DNA from: an uncultured Myxococcales bacterium
GTDB taxonomy: Bacteria > Myxococcota_A > UBA9042
NCBI GenBank assembly: GCA_903955385.1
Contig: CAJBNH010000130.1
Span: 1-34,583, forward strand
Length of the DNA: 34,583 nt
Direction: 5' to 3'
The position numbers and the translations under genes were made by a program. Below the pieces are notes generated by a model that was given only the letters and a program-made list of their open reading frames with translations, did no database searches and was not told where the DNA came from. Below, piece by piece: positions 2,050 through 34,010 of this stretch (the first letter of the stretch is position 1; the number at the start of each line of letters is the position of its first letter).

Positions 2050-2279
2050 GTGTGCCTTGAAGGGGGGAGGTTCCGCCGAATCGGGCGGCCAGCGCGACGC
2101 TCGCAGAATCCGGGGGGCGCCGTCAACCACCGCGACAACGACGGTCGGCCCACCGACACGCGGTGGCCCAACTGGGGCGGCCGCATCCCGTGAGGCTGCG
2201 AGAGCCGATGCGTCACCTTGCGGAGGCCCGGTCCGTGTGGGAGGCTGCCCGCGCAAGCGTTTTCTTCCGGGAGGCGGTC

Positions 2280-4700
2280 ATGCGTGCGACTTCGTTGTCC
2301 TTTGGCGTGCTGATGCTGACCGTAGGCCTGCTGGCGGCGGCTCCGGCGTTTGCAGGTGCCTGCACCGGCAAGGTCAACGGCCTGTGGTGCGACGGCAACA
2401 ACCTGGTGAATTGCCAAGGCGGCAACGTGGCTTCGTCCCAAAGCTGCCCGAACGGCTGCCAGTCGATGCCCGACGGCGTGCCCGACCAGTGCAAGGCGGC
2501 GGCCGGCTTCTGCTCCGGCAAGCAAAACGGCCTGTGGTGCGACGGCGACAAGCTGGTCAACTGCCAGGGCGGCGCGGTGGCGTCGAGCCAGGCCTGCGCG
2601 AACGGTTGCCAGTCGATGCCGGTCGGAACCCCGGATGCGTGCAAGGCGGCCGCGGGTTTCTGCGGCGGCAAACAGAACGGCAAGTGGTGCGACGGCGACA
2701 AGCTGGTCAATTGCCAAGGCGGCGCGGTCGCTTCCAGCCAGACCTGTGACAACGGCTGCGAGTCGATGCCCGTCGGCACCCCCGACCAGTGCAAACCCGG
2801 CACGACTCCGACCGGCCCCTGCTCCAGCAAGTCCGACGGCAAGTGGTGCGACGGCTCCAAGTTGCTGACGTGCAAGGGTGGCAACGTCTCGTCCAGCCAG
2901 GACTGCGGCAACGGCTGCCAGTCGATGCCCGCCGGAACGTCGGACCAGTGCAAGAGCGACCCGACACCGACCGGCTTCTGCTCCAGCAAGACCGACGGCG
3001 CGTGGTGCGACGGCAACGCGCTGCAGCAGTGCAAGTCGGGTCAGACAACCTCCTCTCAGGACTGCAAGAACGGCTGCCAATCCATGCCCGCCGGTACCCC
3101 CGACCAGTGCAAGGCCGACGCCGTCCAACCGACGTTCTGCACCGGCAAGGCCGACGGTCCTTGGTGCGACGGCACCGCCCTGCGAAGCTGCCAGAACGGC
3201 GCGGTGGCCAGCTCTGCCGACTGTCCCGCCGGCTGCCAGACCAACCCTGCCGGCACTCCCGACGCCTGCAAACCCAAGCCGATCGACGGTCTGGACCCCT
3301 GCAAGGGCAAGGCCGACGGCGCGTACTGTCTCGGAGCCCAGCTGGTCGAGTGTTTCAAGGGCAATTCGCAGACCCTGACGCCCTGCCCGAACGGCTGTCT
3401 GGTCAAGCCGCCCGGCACCCCCGACGTCTGCGCCCCTGCGGCCACCGACGACTGCACGATGCTGCCCGACGGCCAGTGGTGCAGCGACGTCAACCTGCTG
3501 AAGTGCAAGAACAAGCAGCTGATCGCCGCCATGTCGTGCGCCCAGGGCTGCTTGGCGATGGGCGGCAAGGGCTCGGCCGTTTGCAAGGCCACCACCACCG
3601 GTTTCTGCGGCGCCAAGACCAACGGCGACTGGTGCGACGGCGAGCTGCTGACGACCTGCTCGTCGGGCAAGACATCGAAGGTTGTGCCGTGCTCTGCCGG
3701 CTGCCAGACCAACCCGCCCGGAACGGCCGACGCGTGCGCGTTCAAGGTGCCCAATCCTCCCCCCAGCGGTGAGGGCGGCCTGTTGACCCCGATCGAGTAC
3801 AAGGGCTGCGCGACGTTCACCGGCTTCGTCGACCTGTGGAAGGACTCTGGCCTGCCCGTCTGGGACCAGAAGGACCCCAAGTGGGGCGGCGACCAGCTGG
3901 GCACCTGCCCCGGCCTGACGATCCACAACTCCGGATGCACCATCACGTCCTTGTCGATGATGCACAACCTGCTGGACCTGACCCGAACGATCGGCAGCGA
4001 GTCGGGCAACGACCCCGGTTTCGAAAACAAGTGGCGCAAGGCCGAGTCCGGCGGCTACGGCACGACCGACCCCTACCCGTATGGCGGCAAGATGGTCACG
4101 GGCGACTGTCTGGTCGCGTGGTCGGAAGCCGCAGGGGGCCTGGTCCCCCACGACAAGCACAACGACTCGAAAAGCTGCCTGACGCAGGTCGCCGCGCAAT
4201 TCATCGCCAATTCGCTCAACGCCGGGATGCCCGTCGTCGCCGGCGTGCACTGGCCCGAGAACCCGTCGCAGCACGACGAGGCCGAGAACTGGCACTGGGT
4301 GCTGGTCGTCGGCGCCGACAAGGACGGCCTGATCCTCAACGACCCGTGGGGCGGCAAAGAGCGGGTGCGCCTGTCGCAGGGCGGTCTGGGCAGCTACACG
4401 GTCGACACGCTCTACACCTTCTGGTCCGGCGGCAACGGCAACGGCAACTTCAAGGGCGCCGCGCTGGACGAGATGGGCGTGCCGCGCGCCGATGAGGACC
4501 TGCCCAACAGCCTGCCGATCCTGGGCCAGCCCCAGACGCAGCCCGACGCCGGAGCGACCGACACGACCTCGGCGCCCGTCTACGGCTCGCCCAGCAGCGG
4601 GTCGTGTACCGCCAGCCCGATGGCTCCGCTGGGGGGTTGGCTGGTCGGATTCGCGGTGATGGTGGTGGTTTTGGTGATGCGGCGGCGGCGCGCCAGCTAG
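2280..4700 (+). CDS. Secreted C39-like cysteine peptidase with nine Cys-rich repeats and MYXO-CTERM-like tail
   Basis: The 806-residue protein has a signal peptide ([20 protein letters not shown], cleavage near APAFAGA). Residues 28-490 are nine tandem repeats of 48-54 residues, each built around GK.NG.WCDG..L..C, S..C.NGCQS and PDQCK with six cysteines. A C39-like peptidase domain follows at about 520-720: [12 protein letters not shown], the nucleophile region [10 protein letters not shown] (Cys553), the His in [11 protein letters not shown] (about 672) and LNDPWGGK (Asp 688). The protein ends with [13 protein letters not shown], a hydrophobic helix and RRRRAS, which resembles the MYXO-CTERM surface-sorting signal. 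GGGAGG at 2269-2274 lies five bases before the chosen ATG; an in-frame ATG at 2163 would bury the signal. It is probably a surface or secreted peptidase displayed on a disulfide-rich stalk. Specificity is unknown. Confidence 0.88.
2361..3749 (+). repeat. Nine tandem ~150-bp coding repeats
   Basis: Nine direct repeats begin at about 2361, 2511, 2661, 2820, 2979, 3138, 3300, 3453 and 3606. The first three are 150-159 bases and closely alike at DNA level (shared runs include GACGGCGACAAGCTGGTCAA in units 2 and 3). Units 7-9 have diverged, which suggests recent expansion at the 5' end. Each unit encodes a six-cysteine module of the peptidase stalk. Confidence 0.9.
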
Positions 4701-27206: not shown

Positions 27207-28190
27207 CTATTGGGCCAGCAGCTCACCGCGGACTCGACTGGTCACCAGAAGATCCACACAACCTGGCGCAAGCTCGACGGAATCGGCCGTGCGCCGCTCG
27301 ATGGACGCCGTCGCTGCGCCCGACACGCCGTAGTTCAACAACGCGGTCGTCAGGCCCGCAGGAATCGTGTAGCTGCCGGTGTCTGGCACGTCGCAGACGA
27401 GCGTGACCGGCGTCAGCCCGTGCTGGTCCACGTTCAGCGAGATCCGCACTTGCCACGGCCCCTGCGCGGCCTCCCAAGTCAGCGTCAGCGCAGTGTTCTT
27501 CTTCATCACCCAGTCTACCGCCGACACGACCAGGTCGGGCACGCCCACGCCGTGTAGTGCAAACGCCTTCAGGTCGCCCCCCGCCGCCTTGAGCTCGACG
27601 TGCGCGCCCATTTCATAGGCCTTGGTGTCGAAGTCCGTGAAAAAGTAGTCTTTGTTCGCGCCCTTGGCCGTCATCGTCACGGGCAGGACCAGCCCGGTCA
27701 CGGTCACCGCACCGACGTCCATCGGGGCCGGGAACGGCTGGCAGCCGGCATCGCGCACACACTGCTCGGTCTTACTGCAACCCGGCGAACACGTAGGGTT
27801 CTTGCGCTGCAACAGCACGCAAGGGCCGTCCTTCTCCTGCTCGACCAGCACCTGCAACGCGTCGATGCGGTCGCTGATGTTGCCCGCCACGTAGGCGCCG
27901 TACTCGTCGTGCAGCGCCTCGAAGCGACCGACGCGGGTCGCCGCCGGACACGCCTGACCGAGCTGCTGGACCCATGGATCCTGCGCTGTATCGACCGGTT
28001 CCACGACTTCACCTGCGTCTGCGTCGCCCGACTCGACCTCGACCGCCACATCCAGTTCCGGCGTCGTGTCCCCGGTCGCGTCACCAACAGCCGTGTCGAC
28101 AACAGGCGTGGTTCCGTCAGAGGAGTCGCAGCCGGACGCCACTGCGACGGCAAGCACAAAGACCCACAGAATCTTGGGGATGCGAGACAT
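27207..28190 (-). CDS. Lipoprotein of unknown function, last gene of a minus-strand group
   Basis: The 327-residue protein starts MSRIPKILWVFVLAVAVASG and has Cys21 as lipid site (ASGC), followed by an Asp/Thr/Val spacer to about residue 68. The middle has PTCSPGCSKTEQCVRDAGC, a small Cys cluster that could be a disulfide knot. The C-terminal 170 residues are strand-rich (VTVTGLVLPVTMTAKG, WQVRISLNVDQHG, VTLVCDVPDTGSYTIPAGLT) and look like a sandwich domain. GGAG lies nine bases before the ATG. It begins 23 bases after the dikinase-like gene, so the two are probably cotranscribed. The Asp just after the lipid Cys would, by the E. coli rule, retain it in the inner membrane; whether that rule holds here is unknown. 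Confidence 0.75.
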   Translation of the reverse strand: MSRIPKILWVFVLAVAVASGCDSSDGTTPVVDTAVGDATGDTTPELDVAVEVESGDADAGEVVEPVDTAQDPWVQQLGQACPAATRVGRFEALHDEYGAYVAGNISDRIDALQVLVEQEKDGPCVLLQRKNPTCSPGCSKTEQCVRDAGCQPFPAPMDVGAVTVTGLVLPVTMTAKGANKDYFFTDFDTKAYEMGAHVELKAAGGDLKAFALHGVGVPDLVVSAVDWVMKKNTALTLTWEAAQGPWQVRISLNVDQHGLTPVTLVCDVPDTGSYTIPAGLTTALLNYGVSGAATASIERRTADSVELAPGCVDLLVTSRVRGELLAQ

Positions 28191-28213: not shown

Positions 28214-30208
28214 TCACTGCGCCCAGCCCTGATGTGGCCGCGCCTGCTTGATCCACACCTTGGACACCGTGTCGCCGGGGGCCGTGTCGAACTTGAACTC
28301 GACATCCATGGCGTAGAACTTGCCCGGTTTCGCATAGATGGGGGCAAACGCCTCGTGCACCTTCACCAACTGCTTGCCCAGCTCATGCACCTGGTCGACC
28401 GTCAGCACGGTCTTTCCAGCACCCACCAGCGAGCTCTGCCCCAGATAGGAAATCGGCTGGCCGGGATAGGCATAGAAATACAGGAACTGCTCGGCCGTCA
28501 CGCCGTCGCCGGGAGGGCGCACAACCGGCGTGTCCCCCGTCTGGACGTTGATGTAGAAGGCAGGCTGCATCGGGTCGAACAGGTTGTTGGTCAGGGCCAC
28601 GCCGTTGGCGTCCTCGGTGGGAAAGCCGCGGTGCACCAACAGCGCCATCGCCACCTGGTCGTTGGGAATGCCTCGCCACGCCCGCTCTTCAAACGCCCGG
28701 TCGTTCCACAGGCTGGCAAACACCTTGCGCACCTGGTCTTCCAGCGCTGAGGTGGGGTCCGCCGGGTCCCAAGTCTTGGACGTATACAGTCCGGCCCCCG
28801 TGAAGCCGTCAAGGTCCTCGGCGTTGGTGCTCGACCGCAACCGCACACGCTGATTCGGAAACTTCTCGTCCAGTCGCGCCCGCAGCGTCTGCAGGAAAGC
28901 CGGGTCCAGTGGCGCCGTCAGCACGAATTCCCGCAGCTCTTGCAGCTTGGACTGGTGATAGGCAGGGTCCTGCACGAACTTCGGGTCCGCTTCGAGTGCC
29001 GCCACCCTTTCGTACAGGCCGTTCTGCACGGCGAACTGGTGGTAGTAGAACACCGGCACGGCGAACGCGGGCGGCACGGGCAGCGTGGGGATCTGGCACA
29101 GCTGTCCGTAGTTGCTGGCCTTTCCGCCAAAGATCGGCGTGTCGGTCGCCGAGACCTGGGTGCAGTCGCGCAGCTCTGTCACGGTCAGGTCCAGGTCGGG
29201 CACCTGGACGACACCCGGCTTGTGCGCCTCCCACCACGCGTCGGCTTCGGCCTGCGTCACTTCCTCGATCTGCCAGTCGAAAGCGGTCACGGTCAGCCGT
29301 ACCCACTTGTTCTGCAAGGACTTCAGCTTGCTGTCGACTTGCGCTCCCACCAGCGCCATGTTCGGCGTGCCGCGGTTCTGCGACAGAACGTTGACGTGTG
29401 ACAGCGGCGTCTGCAGCTCAGCCGTGATCAGGCCCGCCACGACCGACAGGTCGTTCGGCACCGCGTCCAGCACGGCGACGTCGCGCGGCGTTACCCAGGC
29501 CTTCTGCGCTTCGAGATCCTTGACCTGGTAGAACCGCAGCTGACCGACCGCAACCCCAGGATTCAAGGGTTGAAACGACAAGCCCGCGAACAGCTCGGCG
29601 GTCGTCACGATCTTGACGCGCTCGGGCAGCAACGGCACCAGCAACGCCACGGCGTCACTGGTCGGGTGAAAGCGCAGCTGCGGGCCGAAGAACGTCGCGG
29701 CGACCAGCAGGTCCCACGCACGCACCACCATGTCGGCCGATGCGGTGTCGTAGGGCGCGATCTCATACGCCCACACGCCTGCCCCCTCGTAGAACGTCAC
29801 CGCGCCCAGCAGGAACCGCCGCGTGGGGCTGAAGTACTCCTGCGCTGAGAACGACGACGCGTCCTTGACCAGCGGCTTGCCCTTGCCCGACAGGTACTTC
29901 TGGGCAAAGGCGTAGTGCATCGGATAGGTCTCGGCGTTCAGGAAGTACAGCGCGTCGCTGTCCGCCGTGTCGACGATGGTCTTCGACGACTTCGCACCGG
30001 GGATCGCCGCATCGGGAGGACGCCACGCCAGCGCTTCGAAGTCGGCCGGACAGGTCAGCTGGTGGGCAAAGGCAGGCCGCTCTCCCGCGGGAACCGTGCA
30101 CGCGGGGCCCGAGGTATCACCGCCCGCGTCGGCGTCGGCCGCATCGCCGCCGCCGGAACAGCCCAGCGTCGTCAGCAGGGCGCAACACCAGAGCCAAGTC
30201 CCTTTCAT
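28214..30208 (-). CDS. Lipoprotein with PEP-synthase/dikinase-type catalytic core
   Basis: The 664-residue protein begins MKGTWLWCCALLTTLGCSGG, a hydrophobic leader with likely lipid site Cys17 (the lipobox TLGC is not ideal), then a Gly/Asp spacer. Residues about 240-300 form a phosphohistidine swivel domain: TPLSHVNVLSQNRGTPNMAL with His271. Residues about 355-660 form the PEP/pyruvate-type ATP-grasp: IFGGKASNYGQL, VRLRSSTNAEDLDGFTGAGL, LVHRGFPTEDANG, and the ending MDVEFKF with IKQARP. In this family ATP phosphorylates the His and the phosphate passes to an acceptor. The order, His domain before nucleotide domain, is that of glucan water dikinase and opposite to PEP synthase. An exported ATP-grasp is puzzling because ATP is scarce outside. 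The acceptor is unknown. It sits 22 bases after the gene upstream. Confidence 0.8.
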   Translation of the reverse strand: MKGTWLWCCALLTTLGCSGGGDAADADAGGDTSGPACTVPAGERPAFAHQLTCPADFEALAWRPPDAAIPGAKSSKTIVDTADSDALYFLNAETYPMHYAFAQKYLSGKGKPLVKDASSFSAQEYFSPTRRFLLGAVTFYEGAGVWAYEIAPYDTASADMVVRAWDLLVAATFFGPQLRFHPTSDAVALLVPLLPERVKIVTTAELFAGLSFQPLNPGVAVGQLRFYQVKDLEAQKAWVTPRDVAVLDAVPNDLSVVAGLITAELQTPLSHVNVLSQNRGTPNMALVGAQVDSKLKSLQNKWVRLTVTAFDWQIEEVTQAEADAWWEAHKPGVVQVPDLDLTVTELRDCTQVSATDTPIFGGKASNYGQLCQIPTLPVPPAFAVPVFYYHQFAVQNGLYERVAALEADPKFVQDPAYHQSKLQELREFVLTAPLDPAFLQTLRARLDEKFPNQRVRLRSSTNAEDLDGFTGAGLYTSKTWDPADPTSALEDQVRKVFASLWNDRAFEERAWRGIPNDQVAMALLVHRGFPTEDANGVALTNNLFDPMQPAFYINVQTGDTPVVRPPGDGVTAEQFLYFYAYPGQPISYLGQSSLVGAGKTVLTVDQVHELGKQLVKVHEAFAPIYAKPGKFYAMDVEFKFDTAPGDTVSKVWIKQARPHQGWAQ

Positions 30209-30230: not shown

Positions 30231-31349
30231 CTAGGGAAACGCCCGCGGTGCCGTCGGAACACCGACCCGCACCCGCCACAGGCCGATCTTCCAGCCATCC
30301 GGCAAGTACAGGCTGTAGGGGTCCCAGCCGCCGCCGGGGCCCCACTGCATGTTGGGCAGGTAGGTCGCCCCGGGGTCGGCGTCGATGATCTTCACGCCCG
30401 GCCCCCCCTGCGGTGGGATGCGCCAGACGTCCGCATTGCCGTACTCGCACACGTAGACGTTGCCGCACACGTCAACGCCGATGCCGTCCAACAGCCCGTC
30501 GCCGCCCGTGGGGTTCGACCAGACGATGAGCTTGCCGGGCACGCCCGTTGGCGACACGGCCAGACGGTAGATCGACCCGGTGGCGAACGAGCCAATGTAC
30601 AGATACTTGAATTCCGGGTCGAAGATGACGCCGTTCGGGTTCTGGATGGCGTTGGTCAGCACGGTGTAGTCGCCGGAGTAGGGGTCGATGCGCAGCACGC
30701 GTCCCGCATCGTGCTCGGTGACGTAGATGTAGCCCTTCAGATCGACCGTAATCCCATTGGGATACAGCAGCCCCTGCACCAGCACCGTCTGCGACCCGTC
30801 CTGATCGAACAGCAGAATCCGCCCCAGCTTGTCGTCGCACACCGCCAGCTTGCCGTTGGGCAGGAACCGCATCCCGGCGCGCTGGTCAACGTTGGGGATC
30901 CACAGCTTGCCCTTGCCGCCGGCTTTGGTGCGGTAGAGCGCCGTGTTGTTCGACCCCACCAGATTGCCCAAGTGGTCGAAGGCGAGGTCCTCTGAAGCCA
31001 CCGCTCCGGGCACGGCTTCCAGCTGGAAGGGTCCCGGCGGCAGGTTGTTGCAGTCGTAGGTCGCCGGCTCCGGCAGGTCCGCGGTGTCCTGACCCGCGTC
31101 CACATCGTCGTCGATCTCTGGGGTTACGTCGGTCTCTACGTCCGACTCGTCGGCCAAGTCCGCCACGTCCAGAACGTCTGGGACGTCCGGCCCGACGTCA
31201 GACGCATCCGGCTCCACAACATCCATGAGATCAGAGACATCGGCGACATCTTCGACATCCGCGGCCACATCGGTCGGCACTGTGGCGTCGGTGGGCTCGG
31301 CCCGATTTCCACACCCGGCGATGACCAGCAGCGCGACCAACGCCCCCAT
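30231..31349 (-). CDS. Probable separate lipoprotein with SMP-30/NHL-like propeller (internal start)
   Basis: From the in-frame ATG at 31349 the 372-residue product starts MGALVALLVIAGCGN, a complete lipoprotein signal (IAGC, Cys13). An Asp/Val-rich acidic spacer of about 80 residues follows, as in the other lipoproteins of the window. The rest is a gluconolactonase/NHL-like six-bladed propeller: LYPNGITVDLKGYIYVTEHD, RVLRIDPYSGDYTVLTNAIQ, NPNGVIFDPEFKYLYIGSFA and DGIGVDVCGNVYVCEYGNAD. GTGATGG at this point overlaps a +1-frame TGA with the ATG, the usual arrangement of coupled genes. I think this was originally an independent gene, with the upstream gene ending at that TGA. A ribosome site is weak. 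Confidence 0.6.
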   Translation of the reverse strand: MGALVALLVIAGCGNRAEPTDATVPTDVAADVEDVADVSDLMDVVEPDASDVGPDVPDVLDVADLADESDVETDVTPEIDDDVDAGQDTADLPEPATYDCNNLPPGPFQLEAVPGAVASEDLAFDHLGNLVGSNNTALYRTKAGGKGKLWIPNVDQRAGMRFLPNGKLAVCDDKLGRILLFDQDGSQTVLVQGLLYPNGITVDLKGYIYVTEHDAGRVLRIDPYSGDYTVLTNAIQNPNGVIFDPEFKYLYIGSFATGSIYRLAVSPTGVPGKLIVWSNPTGGDGLLDGIGVDVCGNVYVCEYGNADVWRIPPQGGPGVKIIDADPGATYLPNMQWGPGGGWDPYSLYLPDGWKIGLWRVRVGVPTAPRAFP

Positions 31350-33449
31350 CACCCACCACGAACGCCTGGTCGACCGCCGCCGTACCGCGCCCATCAGCAA
31401 CAGGGAGAGCAACAGCAACAGGCCGCCGCCGCGCGCTCCGGGCCCGGTCGCTCCTGCCTTGCAGCCGCCGCTGCTGCCTGCCGTATCGCCGCTTGCGTCG
31501 GACTTGCAGACACCGGCAGAGCACGCAACCCCCGACGCGCACTCGCCACACGTGCCGCCGCAACCGTCGGGACCACACCCGGGCGTCTTGCACTGCGGCG
31601 TGCAGGTGGGCTTGCAAGCAGAGGCCTCGCAGCCGTTGGGACAGGACTGCAAGTACTGGGCGTTTTGGCCACACGAGTCCAGGGTGCATAGCGCCGAGCC
31701 GCAGCAGACCCGCTCGTCGCCCGGCACGCACGCACACTGGCCGTCCTGACACTGCTTGCCGCCAAAGCAGCCGCCGCACTCGCCGCCGCAACCGTCCGGC
31801 CCGCACTCCAGACCAAGGCACTTGGGCTCGCAGCTGCCAGGACAGGCCTTGACGAGTTTGCCCGAAGGGTCCGCCTCGCCCGTGGTGCCGCAGTCGTAAT
31901 GCTGGTTGCCGGGGTGCCAGCCGCACCCTCCGGGGGGGGCGCACACCTGCTGCGTCACCTGACCGCCATTGCAGACCTTCAACGTCTGGCCGTCACAGCA
32001 GCCCTCTGCCTGCACGCCGTCACAGCCGTTCGCGACGCACTGCCCCTCGTTGCACGCGAAATGTGCAGGACAATCGCCGCAGTCCCCGCCACAGCCATTG
32101 TCGCCACACGCTTTGCCTGCGCACTGCGGAAGACAGGCGACACAGGTTCCGTCCTTGCAAAGGGTCCCCTTGTCGCATGGACACTTGCCGCCACAACCGT
32201 CGTCGCCGCAGGATGTTCCGTCGCACGTCGTCTTGCAGCACCCCGCGTTGCCAGGACAGGACTCGCAGACGCCCTCGCAGCAGTCGCCGTAGTCCGCGCA
32301 AGCGTCGTCGCAGTAGCAATCCTGTCCGCTCTCGTTCTTTACAGGACCACCGCCGCACTGGCCCGCGCAAACTCCTGTCATGCAAGCGTTTCCGACGCAA
32401 ATCAGGCCCTCGTCGCACTGACCGCACTCGCCACCGCAACCGTCGGATCCGCAAGCCTTGCCCTCGCAATCGGGGACACACTTCTCGCACTGACCGTCGA
32501 TACACGCGTCCCACTCGCCACACGAGCCGCACTTGCCACCGCAACCGTCCGAACCGCAGGTCTTGCCCTCGCACGTCGGCTGACAGCACTGGTACTGGTG
32601 GCAGACCTGACCGCCTTTGCAGCCGCCGCAGTCCACGCCGCAGAAGTTGCCACAGCCCAGACCGTCGCACGTCGGCTTGGCGGGACACGGAGCGCAGGAC
32701 TGCCCGCACTCGGTCTCGCACGCTTCGGCGCAGAACGCGTCCCAAGCCAGCGTGCAGCAAAAGGGATGCTTGGTGCATACGCACGACTCGCACATGCAGC
32801 CCGGGCAGCCGGGCTGGTCGCTGGGAAGGCAGGCTTGCGGCACGGGCAGGCACTGGCTCAGGCCCGGCTCGCACGCGGTGCCGGAAGGGCAGACGCCGCA
32901 CGAGAAGCCGTTGGGGTCCACGCCGCAGGTCTGTTGGCCGCACTGGGGGACGTAGCACGCGCCGTCGTCCAGACACAGCGCTCCCTTCCCCTCGCACTTG
33001 CCACAGAGTCCCGAGCACTTGGCGCTGCAGGCCGCTGCACCGCCCTGACACTCCGCGGGACACGCTGAGCAGGACAGCGGGTGCGTCCCGCTGGGGTCAG
33101 CGCCGCCAGTCGTGCCGCAGTCGTAGGTTCCAGCACTGCTGCCGGGGCCAGAGGAAGCCCACCCGCAAGCGGGGAAGGTGCCCGCGCAGTCAATGCAGTA
33201 CAGGTCGGCTCCAGTGCAATAGAGCAGACGTCCGGTCGCGTCGCAGCACCCGGCGGGGTCGAGCTTGCAGCCACCGACGACCGAGGGTTCCAGCGGCCCC
33301 TTGCACGCCTTGGGGCTGCCTTCCGCCGCCGCGACGACTGGCCATGCGCACACGGCGGCAAGACAAGCGACGAGCAGCCAGCGCCAAGCGCGACGGGAGG
33401 CCCGCGTGAAGTCGGTGGGGGTCGAGAAGGGCGCGCGACGGGTGGACAT
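30231..33449 (-). CDS. Giant Cys-rich secreted protein joined in frame to a propeller lipoprotein
   Basis: This 1072-residue frame has a signal peptide (RRAWRWLLVACLAAVCAWPV, cleavage near AAAEG). Residues about 50-650 are Cys-rich. Six modules of the type CGSDGCGGKCGSC occur, two copies of a module with a YDCGTTG.ADPSG core, and a somatomedin-B-like segment (about 361-398, with DCYCDDACADYGDCC). It then shows a tail like MYXO-CTERM (GGCKAGATGP, GGGLLLLLSLLLMGAVRRR) at about 660-697, where such proteins normally stop. Instead the frame continues directly into a lipoprotein signal and propeller from 31349. The ATG at 33449 is preferred for its signal peptide; an in-frame ATG at about 33482 overlaps the predicted -10 box. 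Whether one or two proteins are made is unresolved. Confidence 0.75.
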   Translation of the reverse strand: MSTRRAPFSTPTDFTRASRRAWRWLLVACLAAVCAWPVVAAAEGSPKACKGPLEPSVVGGCKLDPAGCCDATGRLLYCTGADLYCIDCAGTFPACGWASSGPGSSAGTYDCGTTGGADPSGTHPLSCSACPAECQGGAAACSAKCSGLCGKCEGKGALCLDDGACYVPQCGQQTCGVDPNGFSCGVCPSGTACEPGLSQCLPVPQACLPSDQPGCPGCMCESCVCTKHPFCCTLAWDAFCAEACETECGQSCAPCPAKPTCDGLGCGNFCGVDCGGCKGGQVCHQYQCCQPTCEGKTCGSDGCGGKCGSCGEWDACIDGQCEKCVPDCEGKACGSDGCGGECGQCDEGLICVGNACMTGVCAGQCGGGPVKNESGQDCYCDDACADYGDCCEGVCESCPGNAGCCKTTCDGTSCGDDGCGGKCPCDKGTLCKDGTCVACLPQCAGKACGDNGCGGDCGDCPAHFACNEGQCVANGCDGVQAEGCCDGQTLKVCNGGQVTQQVCAPPGGCGWHPGNQHYDCGTTGEADPSGKLVKACPGSCEPKCLGLECGPDGCGGECGGCFGGKQCQDGQCACVPGDERVCCGSALCTLDSCGQNAQYLQSCPNGCEASACKPTCTPQCKTPGCGPDGCGGTCGECASGVACSAGVCKSDASGDTAGSSGGCKAGATGPGARGGGLLLLLSLLLMGAVRRRSTRRSWWVMGALVALLVIAGCGNRAEPTDATVPTDVAADVEDVADVSDLMDVVEPDASDVGPDVPDVLDVADLADESDVETDVTPEIDDDVDAGQDTADLPEPATYDCNNLPPGPFQLEAVPGAVASEDLAFDHLGNLVGSNNTALYRTKAGGKGKLWIPNVDQRAGMRFLPNGKLAVCDDKLGRILLFDQDGSQTVLVQGLLYPNGITVDLKGYIYVTEHDAGRVLRIDPYSGDYTVLTNAIQNPNGVIFDPEFKYLYIGSFATGSIYRLAVSPTGVPGKLIVWSNPTGGDGLLDGIGVDVCGNVYVCEYGNADVWRIPPQGGPGVKIIDADPGATYLPNMQWGPGGGWDPYSLYLPDGWKIGLWRVRVGVPTAPRAFP

Positions 33450-33480
33450 GAAACACCGCGAGGGCAAAGGCCAGACCCGC

Positions 33481-33509
33481 ATCCTAATTGGCCGTTCGCG
33501 GGGGGGCAA
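33481..33509 (-). promoter_or_regulatory. Promoter candidate for the Cys-rich/dikinase gene group
   Basis: On the minus strand TTGCCC (33509-33504) and TAGGAT (33486-33481) are separated by exactly 17 bases, 31 bases upstream of the ATG at 33449. It is the third TTG-N3-N17-TAGG example in the window and separates this group from the phosphatase gene. Confidence 0.45.
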
Positions 33510-33542
33510 ACGCGTTGCGCTGCTTCGGCGCGTTCTCATCGC

Positions 33543-34010
33543 TCAGTCGGGAAGCGGGCGTTCGGCCACGCGTCGGGCAAAGGCGTGAACGGCCGCGACC
33601 TGCTCTGCTGTCTCGATCGAGCCGTGACGAGATTTACGAACAACCTCGATAGCTTCCGCGGCAGATGCTCCGTCAGCGACCAAGCAGGCCGCCAGCACGG
33701 TGCCGGTTCGGCCCAAGCCCGCAGCGCAGTGAACGGCGACCGCCCGCCCTGCGCGTTGCTGATCGCCGATCCACGCCACGAGGTCGTCCAGCAGCTCGGG
33801 TTCCGGCGCGGCGAAGTCTGCAATCGGAGCGTGGCGGGAGGTCAGCCCTGCCGCCTCGAGCTCGCGCGGGTCCAGCGGCGTCTCCGTCAGACTGAGCAGG
33901 GCCTCAATACCCACGCGGCGCAGCTCGGCAAGGTCCTCCCTCAAGTCTGGACCCGGCCGTGCCACGCCGGCGAGCAGGCGCGTCTGGAGATAGGAGAAGT
34001 TGCGCAGCAT
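33543..34010 (-). CDS. Dual-specificity protein phosphatase family protein
   Basis: The 155-residue protein has the Cys-based phosphatase signature HCAAGLGRTG (His94, Cys95, Arg101), preceded by VAVH and followed by a helix, as in the DSP/PTP superfamily. Asp65 in PIADFAAPE is the likely general acid. SYLQTRLLAGVARPGPD at the N-terminus fits the short bacterial type. No signal peptide is seen, so it is cytosolic. The substrate could be a phosphoprotein, phosphoinositide or phosphosugar; sequence does not decide. GGGGA lies four bases before the ATG. The gap to the next minus-strand gene is 93 bases and holds that gene's own promoter candidate, so cotranscription is uncertain. Confidence 0.9.
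   Translation of the reverse strand: MLRNFSYLQTRLLAGVARPGPDLREDLAELRRVGIEALLSLTETPLDPRELEAAGLTSRHAPIADFAAPEPELLDDLVAWIGDQQRAGRAVAVHCAAGLGRTGTVLAACLVADGASAAEAIEVVRKSRHGSIETAEQVAAVHAFARRVAERPLPD

Follow-up and report, generated by a model that had tools for sequence, protein, structure and literature searches.

A conserved in-frame fusion of a MYXO-CTERM-like sorting tail to a lipoprotein-type signal in Myxococcota and its possible processing into two envelope proteins

Introduction

MYXO-CTERM sorting tails (TIGR03901, NF040593), which consist of a Cys residue, a helix and an Arg cluster, normally occupy the very C-terminus of a protein and are usually seen as C-terminal tags, an internal copy being a rarity. 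Myxosortase has been shown to cut these tails, both in vivo and in E. coli, a reaction for which the Cys is needed, and lipidation followed by cleavage has been proposed (Guo, Haft and Wall; PMC11980579). Internal copies are already on record: the same paper calls internal motifs rare, describes MXAN_5598 of Myxococcus xanthus as a possible gene fusion and proposes processing of its internal MYXO-CTERM motif (PMC11980579). MXAN_5598 combines, in one ORF, a secreted adhesin-like part, the internal motif and a second exported domain, an outer-membrane barrel with an OmpA domain; the passage that deals with it mentions no second signal peptide (PMC11980579). Two other M. xanthus proteins, TraA and TraB, form a pair in which a Cys-rich MYXO-CTERM protein is encoded directly before its partner envelope protein (PMC3325183).

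Here we analyze a 34,583-nucleotide contig of an uncultured Myxococcales bacterium (hereafter, the window), in which the original prediction had noticed a MYXO-CTERM-like tail that runs in frame into a lipoprotein signal. The join is indeed present where it had been placed, and the expected anatomy of the tail (Cys, transmembrane helix, Arg cluster) is borne out by the sequence and by the alignment of relatives. The arrangement of the encoded protein resembles that of MXAN_5598, but its second part is a predicted lipoprotein rather than an outer-membrane barrel.

Results

The fused open reading frame spans positions 30231..33539 of the minus strand (1,102 codons), on which all parts of the fusion lie, and translation probably begins at the ATG at 33449 (MSTRRAPF...), picked by eye with the signal peptide downstream. 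The N-terminal Sec signal peptide (MSTRR...RRAWRWLLVACLAAVCAWPVVAAA; 33321..33449), directly apparent in the sequence and with a predicted cleavage site, is followed by a Cys-rich exported region with C-x-GKxCGxDGCGGxCGxC repeats (31497..33308) that is homologous to separate Cys-rich proteins in two other genomes, G036 and G023. The internal MYXO-CTERM-like signal (31374..31472) comprises the Cys (31463-31461), helix 1 (about 31421-31383) and the Arg cluster (31382-31362); beyond it, hydrophobic helix 2 (31311..31352) ends in the lipobox IAG-C, with the Cys at 31313-31311. In the window frame, the join reads GGC(31463-31461)KAGATGPGARGGGLLLLLSLLLMGAV-RRRSTRR-SWWVMGALVALLVIAG-C(31313-31311)GN. 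After the lipobox Cys comes an Asp/Pro-rich low-complexity linker (31065..31310), with equivalents in all relatives, and then an SMP-30/gluconolactonase-like (NHL-type) beta-propeller (30231..31064; PF08450, 53.7 bits, exceeding the gathering cut-off of 26.3). About 380 residues thus lie C-terminal of the MYXO-CTERM-like tail, which, unlike the TIGR03901 norm, is not at the C-terminus.

The match to the SMP-30/gluconolactonase/DrP35 propeller family covers the C-terminal part of the window protein. The nearest named relatives include lactonase-type enzymes of the SMP-30/DrP35 kind, which is a lead only with regard to the possible substrate or role of the gene set described below; candidate invariant residues E, N, N and D are seen as columns of the propeller alignment A1. 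In the paralogous propellers L016, L017, L026, L035 and L027, a repeat that contains Cys (C.GK..GD.C-like) is inserted between blades, close to position 270 of the propeller query. Elsewhere in the window (2163-4700, plus strand), another gene encodes a Cys-rich repeat protein of its own, in which the MYXO-CTERM is an ordinary terminal one (tail at 4596-4691).

A search of 52 genomes of the class with the propeller as the query produced orthologues (score >450 bits) in 10 genomes. The same in-frame join was found in eight of these, from three families: the window genome G000, G019, G010 and G006 (f1), G050 and G051 (f5), and G028 and G035 (f8); in G006, the join spans two contigs with an exact overlap of 141 bases. 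No stop codon separates the two parts in any of the eight genes. In the remaining two genomes, the parts are separate genes: in G036 (f9), the propeller, a PPDK_N lipoprotein and the Cys-rich protein are encoded in a single cluster, whereas in G023 (f3), the propeller and the Cys-rich homologue are on different contigs. In these unfused homologues, both signals are found where such signals ordinarily lie, and the separate Cys-rich homologue of G036 ends right past the Arg cluster. Such a comparison with relatives had been set as a check in the original prediction, and it backs one of the two alternatives offered there, that of a true fusion whose two membrane signals lie mid-protein. In a maximum-likelihood tree of 16 propellers, all eight fused copies included, the fused propellers fall on one side of a single branch (95/95, 96% of bootstrap trees); the simplest history, therefore, is a genuine and old fusion that occurred once, before the three families diverged.

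The two signals have one Arg cluster in common, with which the first signal ends and which provides the second with its n-region. The lipoprotein signal had been thought complete, with its own ATG at 31349. This ATG exists (31349-31347), but the signal that begins there is not complete because the 12 residues up to the Cys include no Arg or Lys, that is, no positively charged n-region of its own, and there is no Shine-Dalgarno sequence; the charge comes from the upstream Arg cluster. The lipobox Cys of the window follows a hydrophobic h-region, and the PS00013 lipobox pattern fits six of the eight lipoboxes, including that of the window, the misfits being VTC in G051 and AWGC in G028. The window tail scores 13.2-13.6 bits, below the curated TIGR03901 cut-off of 20 bits, and four orthologous tails score above it (G019, 27.7; G050, 21.7; G028, 21.3; G035, 27.5 bits); because the same join occurs in eight genomes, the window tail is more than a chance match despite its low score. 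The spacing between the two Cys is 40-50 residues in seven of the eight joins and 71 in G028 (L011); in contrast to the other seven, the hairpin loop of G028 is Arg-rich, and it is longer by about 20-30 residues. In the alignment of the eight joins, just three hairpin columns are invariant: the Cys of the MYXO-CTERM-like tail, a single Leu and the Cys of the lipobox. Invariance of both Cys is what would be predicted of two processing sites.

Lipoprotein genes recur beside the fusion, which is therefore one member of a conserved envelope-protein set. The next gene of the cluster encodes a PPDK_N-domain lipoprotein (MKGTWLWCCALLTTLGC...; 28214..30208, minus strand), and the third encodes a lipoprotein with no Pfam match (27207..28190, minus strand). 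Both are located downstream of the fusion in G000, G010, G019, G006, G051 and G035. Of the two, the third gene alone was found beside the fusion in G050, and in G028, the contig terminates within the PPDK_N gene. The separate Cys-rich gene adjoins members of this set in G036 and G039. Just upstream of the fusion, the window contains a gene for a DSP/PTP-type phosphatase (33543-34010, minus strand); no match of this type was found beside the fusions of the relatives.

The same design is found in unrelated proteins. Among the best 30 TIGR03901 matches in the window genome, 23 are terminal (the protein ends at most 28 residues from the match centre) and seven are internal. Each of the seven internal matches precedes a further hydrophobic segment that bears an AxA-like site, after which comes a domain resembling an outer-membrane barrel, and six of these ORFs also have a TSP3 repeat match (G000 contigs C135, C13, C28, C24, C87, C146 and C106; loci L058, L062, L068, L069, L070, L073 and L077). 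Of the 23 terminal MYXO-CTERM ORFs, just one has a hydrophobic stretch in frame with it and no more than 35 residues past its stop codon, as measured over a slightly different span. A hairpin profile search identified more internal copies across the class, about ten of which have a site of the signal-peptidase-I type. The lipobox version is present in at least nine other ORFs, other families of the phylum included: seven within the class (two each in G038 and G035, one each in G016, G020 and G050, with the G016 and G020 proteins resembling each other), along with G203 and G128 outside it. Two of these proteins, from different families (L178, G038:C237; L198, G203:C8), combine CarboxypepD_reg/PEGA, an internal MYXO-CTERM, a lipobox and a PD40 propeller, with Amidase_3 also present in the G038 copy; at the Pfam level, this pair is unrelated to that of the window.

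Discussion

The fused gene probably encodes a single precursor of two exported proteins, with the hairpin cut twice and both products released. The N-terminal signal peptide would lead the Cys-rich part to the periplasm, helix 1 of the MYXO-CTERM-like signal would stop transfer, the shared Arg cluster would be kept in the cytoplasm, and helix 2 would act as an internal signal sequence exporting the propeller. Under the positive-inside rule, an Arg cluster lies on the cytoplasmic side, so both flanking domains would be outside. The unusual topology that had been anticipated is better read as a putative out-in-out hairpin, with both domains periplasmic and one cleavage site on each side. A myxosortase-type CPBP protease would most likely cut at the first Cys, and the lipoprotein signal peptidase (LspA, after Lgt) before the second; with one site at each outer end of the hairpin, both domains would be freed and a hairpin of about 50 residues discarded. 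The predicted products, in a 1:1 ratio, are the Cys-rich protein, anchored at its C-terminus, and the propeller, lipidated at its N-terminus, both presumably located at the surface and functioning jointly; a stable fused product is not expected. The main evidence for the predicted double cleavage is the conservation of exactly two Cys. In the window genome, 27 matches reach or exceed the TIGR03901 cut-off. The genome also encodes a CPBP protease in which the motifs EExxxR and HxxxN are present and which scores 80 bits against the MrtX model, below the cut-off of 180.

The other alternative in the original prediction was a one-base indel, real or due to sequencing, that fused two genes, with an out-of-frame TGA overlapping the ATG as the vestige of a former stop. 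This TGA is there (31350-31348, overlapping ATG 31349), but has little weight because TGATG occurs in the join stretch of only two of the eight fused genes (the window and G010) and is absent in the other six; on these grounds, we rejected it as a fossil stop. Two separate genes joined by a sequencing error or a recent indel are extremely improbable, being refuted by the identical in-frame join in seven other genomes, which come from other families and sequencing projects as well; third-position GC stays high over the join in the fused frame, and the occurrence of the same design in unrelated gene pairs likewise argues against an error.

If the join is genuine, the lipoprotein could still be produced also, or mainly, from internal translation starts in the hairpin, making the fusion a minor read-through product. 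Seven of the eight genes have some ATG, GTG or TTG between the two Cys that retains the Arg cluster, and in some genes, the cluster is retained only together with helix 1. However, no start position is common to the genes, Shine-Dalgarno-like sequences are almost absent, and the frame is uninterrupted throughout, which makes this scenario quite improbable; in G019, there is no start codon from the first Cys to position -7, so that there the lipoprotein can be produced only within the fusion. With no shared start, and none in G019, internal initiation was rejected as the sole source of the lipoprotein. Somewhat more credible, albeit unlikely, is a conserved fusion that remains uncut or is cut at one site only, yielding a two-helix inner-membrane protein with both domains periplasmic: an open frame by itself is silent on cleavage, two of the lipoboxes are weak, and so is the MYXO-CTERM score of the window. 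Against this stand the two Cys, invariant while the remaining hairpin varies freely, and the presence of both signals in ordinary positions in the separate homologues. We favor the precursor that is cut twice; for the recurrent design in general, the most likely course is likewise a first cut by myxosortase and a second by signal peptidase II or I, yielding two surface proteins.

In the window genome, roughly one in four of the best MYXO-CTERM matches is internal and has another export signal directly after it, and this second signal can be a lipobox. In the literature covered, to which the main myxosortase discovery paper is external, we found no account of internal MYXO-CTERM being repeatedly paired with such a signal, or of the lipobox version, so priority is uncertain. 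More broadly, the chances seem evenly balanced that Myxococcota have evolved a recurrent module of this kind, a self-removing membrane hairpin in which a C-terminal sorting tail is fused to a further export signal of either the lipoprotein or the ordinary type. Such a module would turn adjacent envelope-protein genes into single precursors, the products of which are delivered together at one place in equal numbers. The hairpin fusions would allow one to test cleanly whether internal sites are cut by myxosortase and LspA, and they pair unknown proteins by function.

Two exported proteins are also made as one chain and separated at an internal signal sequence in the cytochrome b/c1 protein FbcH of Bradyrhizobium. 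The same applies to the Gn/Gc glycoproteins of bunyaviruses (PMC5113920). FbcH and Gn/Gc differ from the window protein in having no C-terminal sorting tail, and no myxosortase takes part in their processing; the enzyme that cuts them is signal peptidase I or the eukaryotic signal peptidase, where LspA is proposed here. If both ends of the hairpin are cut, bacteria would produce surface-protein polyproteins much as viruses do. The TraA/TraB pair differs from the window in consisting of two ORFs with a four-base overlap, rather than one frame, and in the barrel, TSP3 and OmpA domains of TraB (PMC3325183). By analogy, TraA/TraB shows how such a fusion could arise, and suggests that pairs of this kind may work together.
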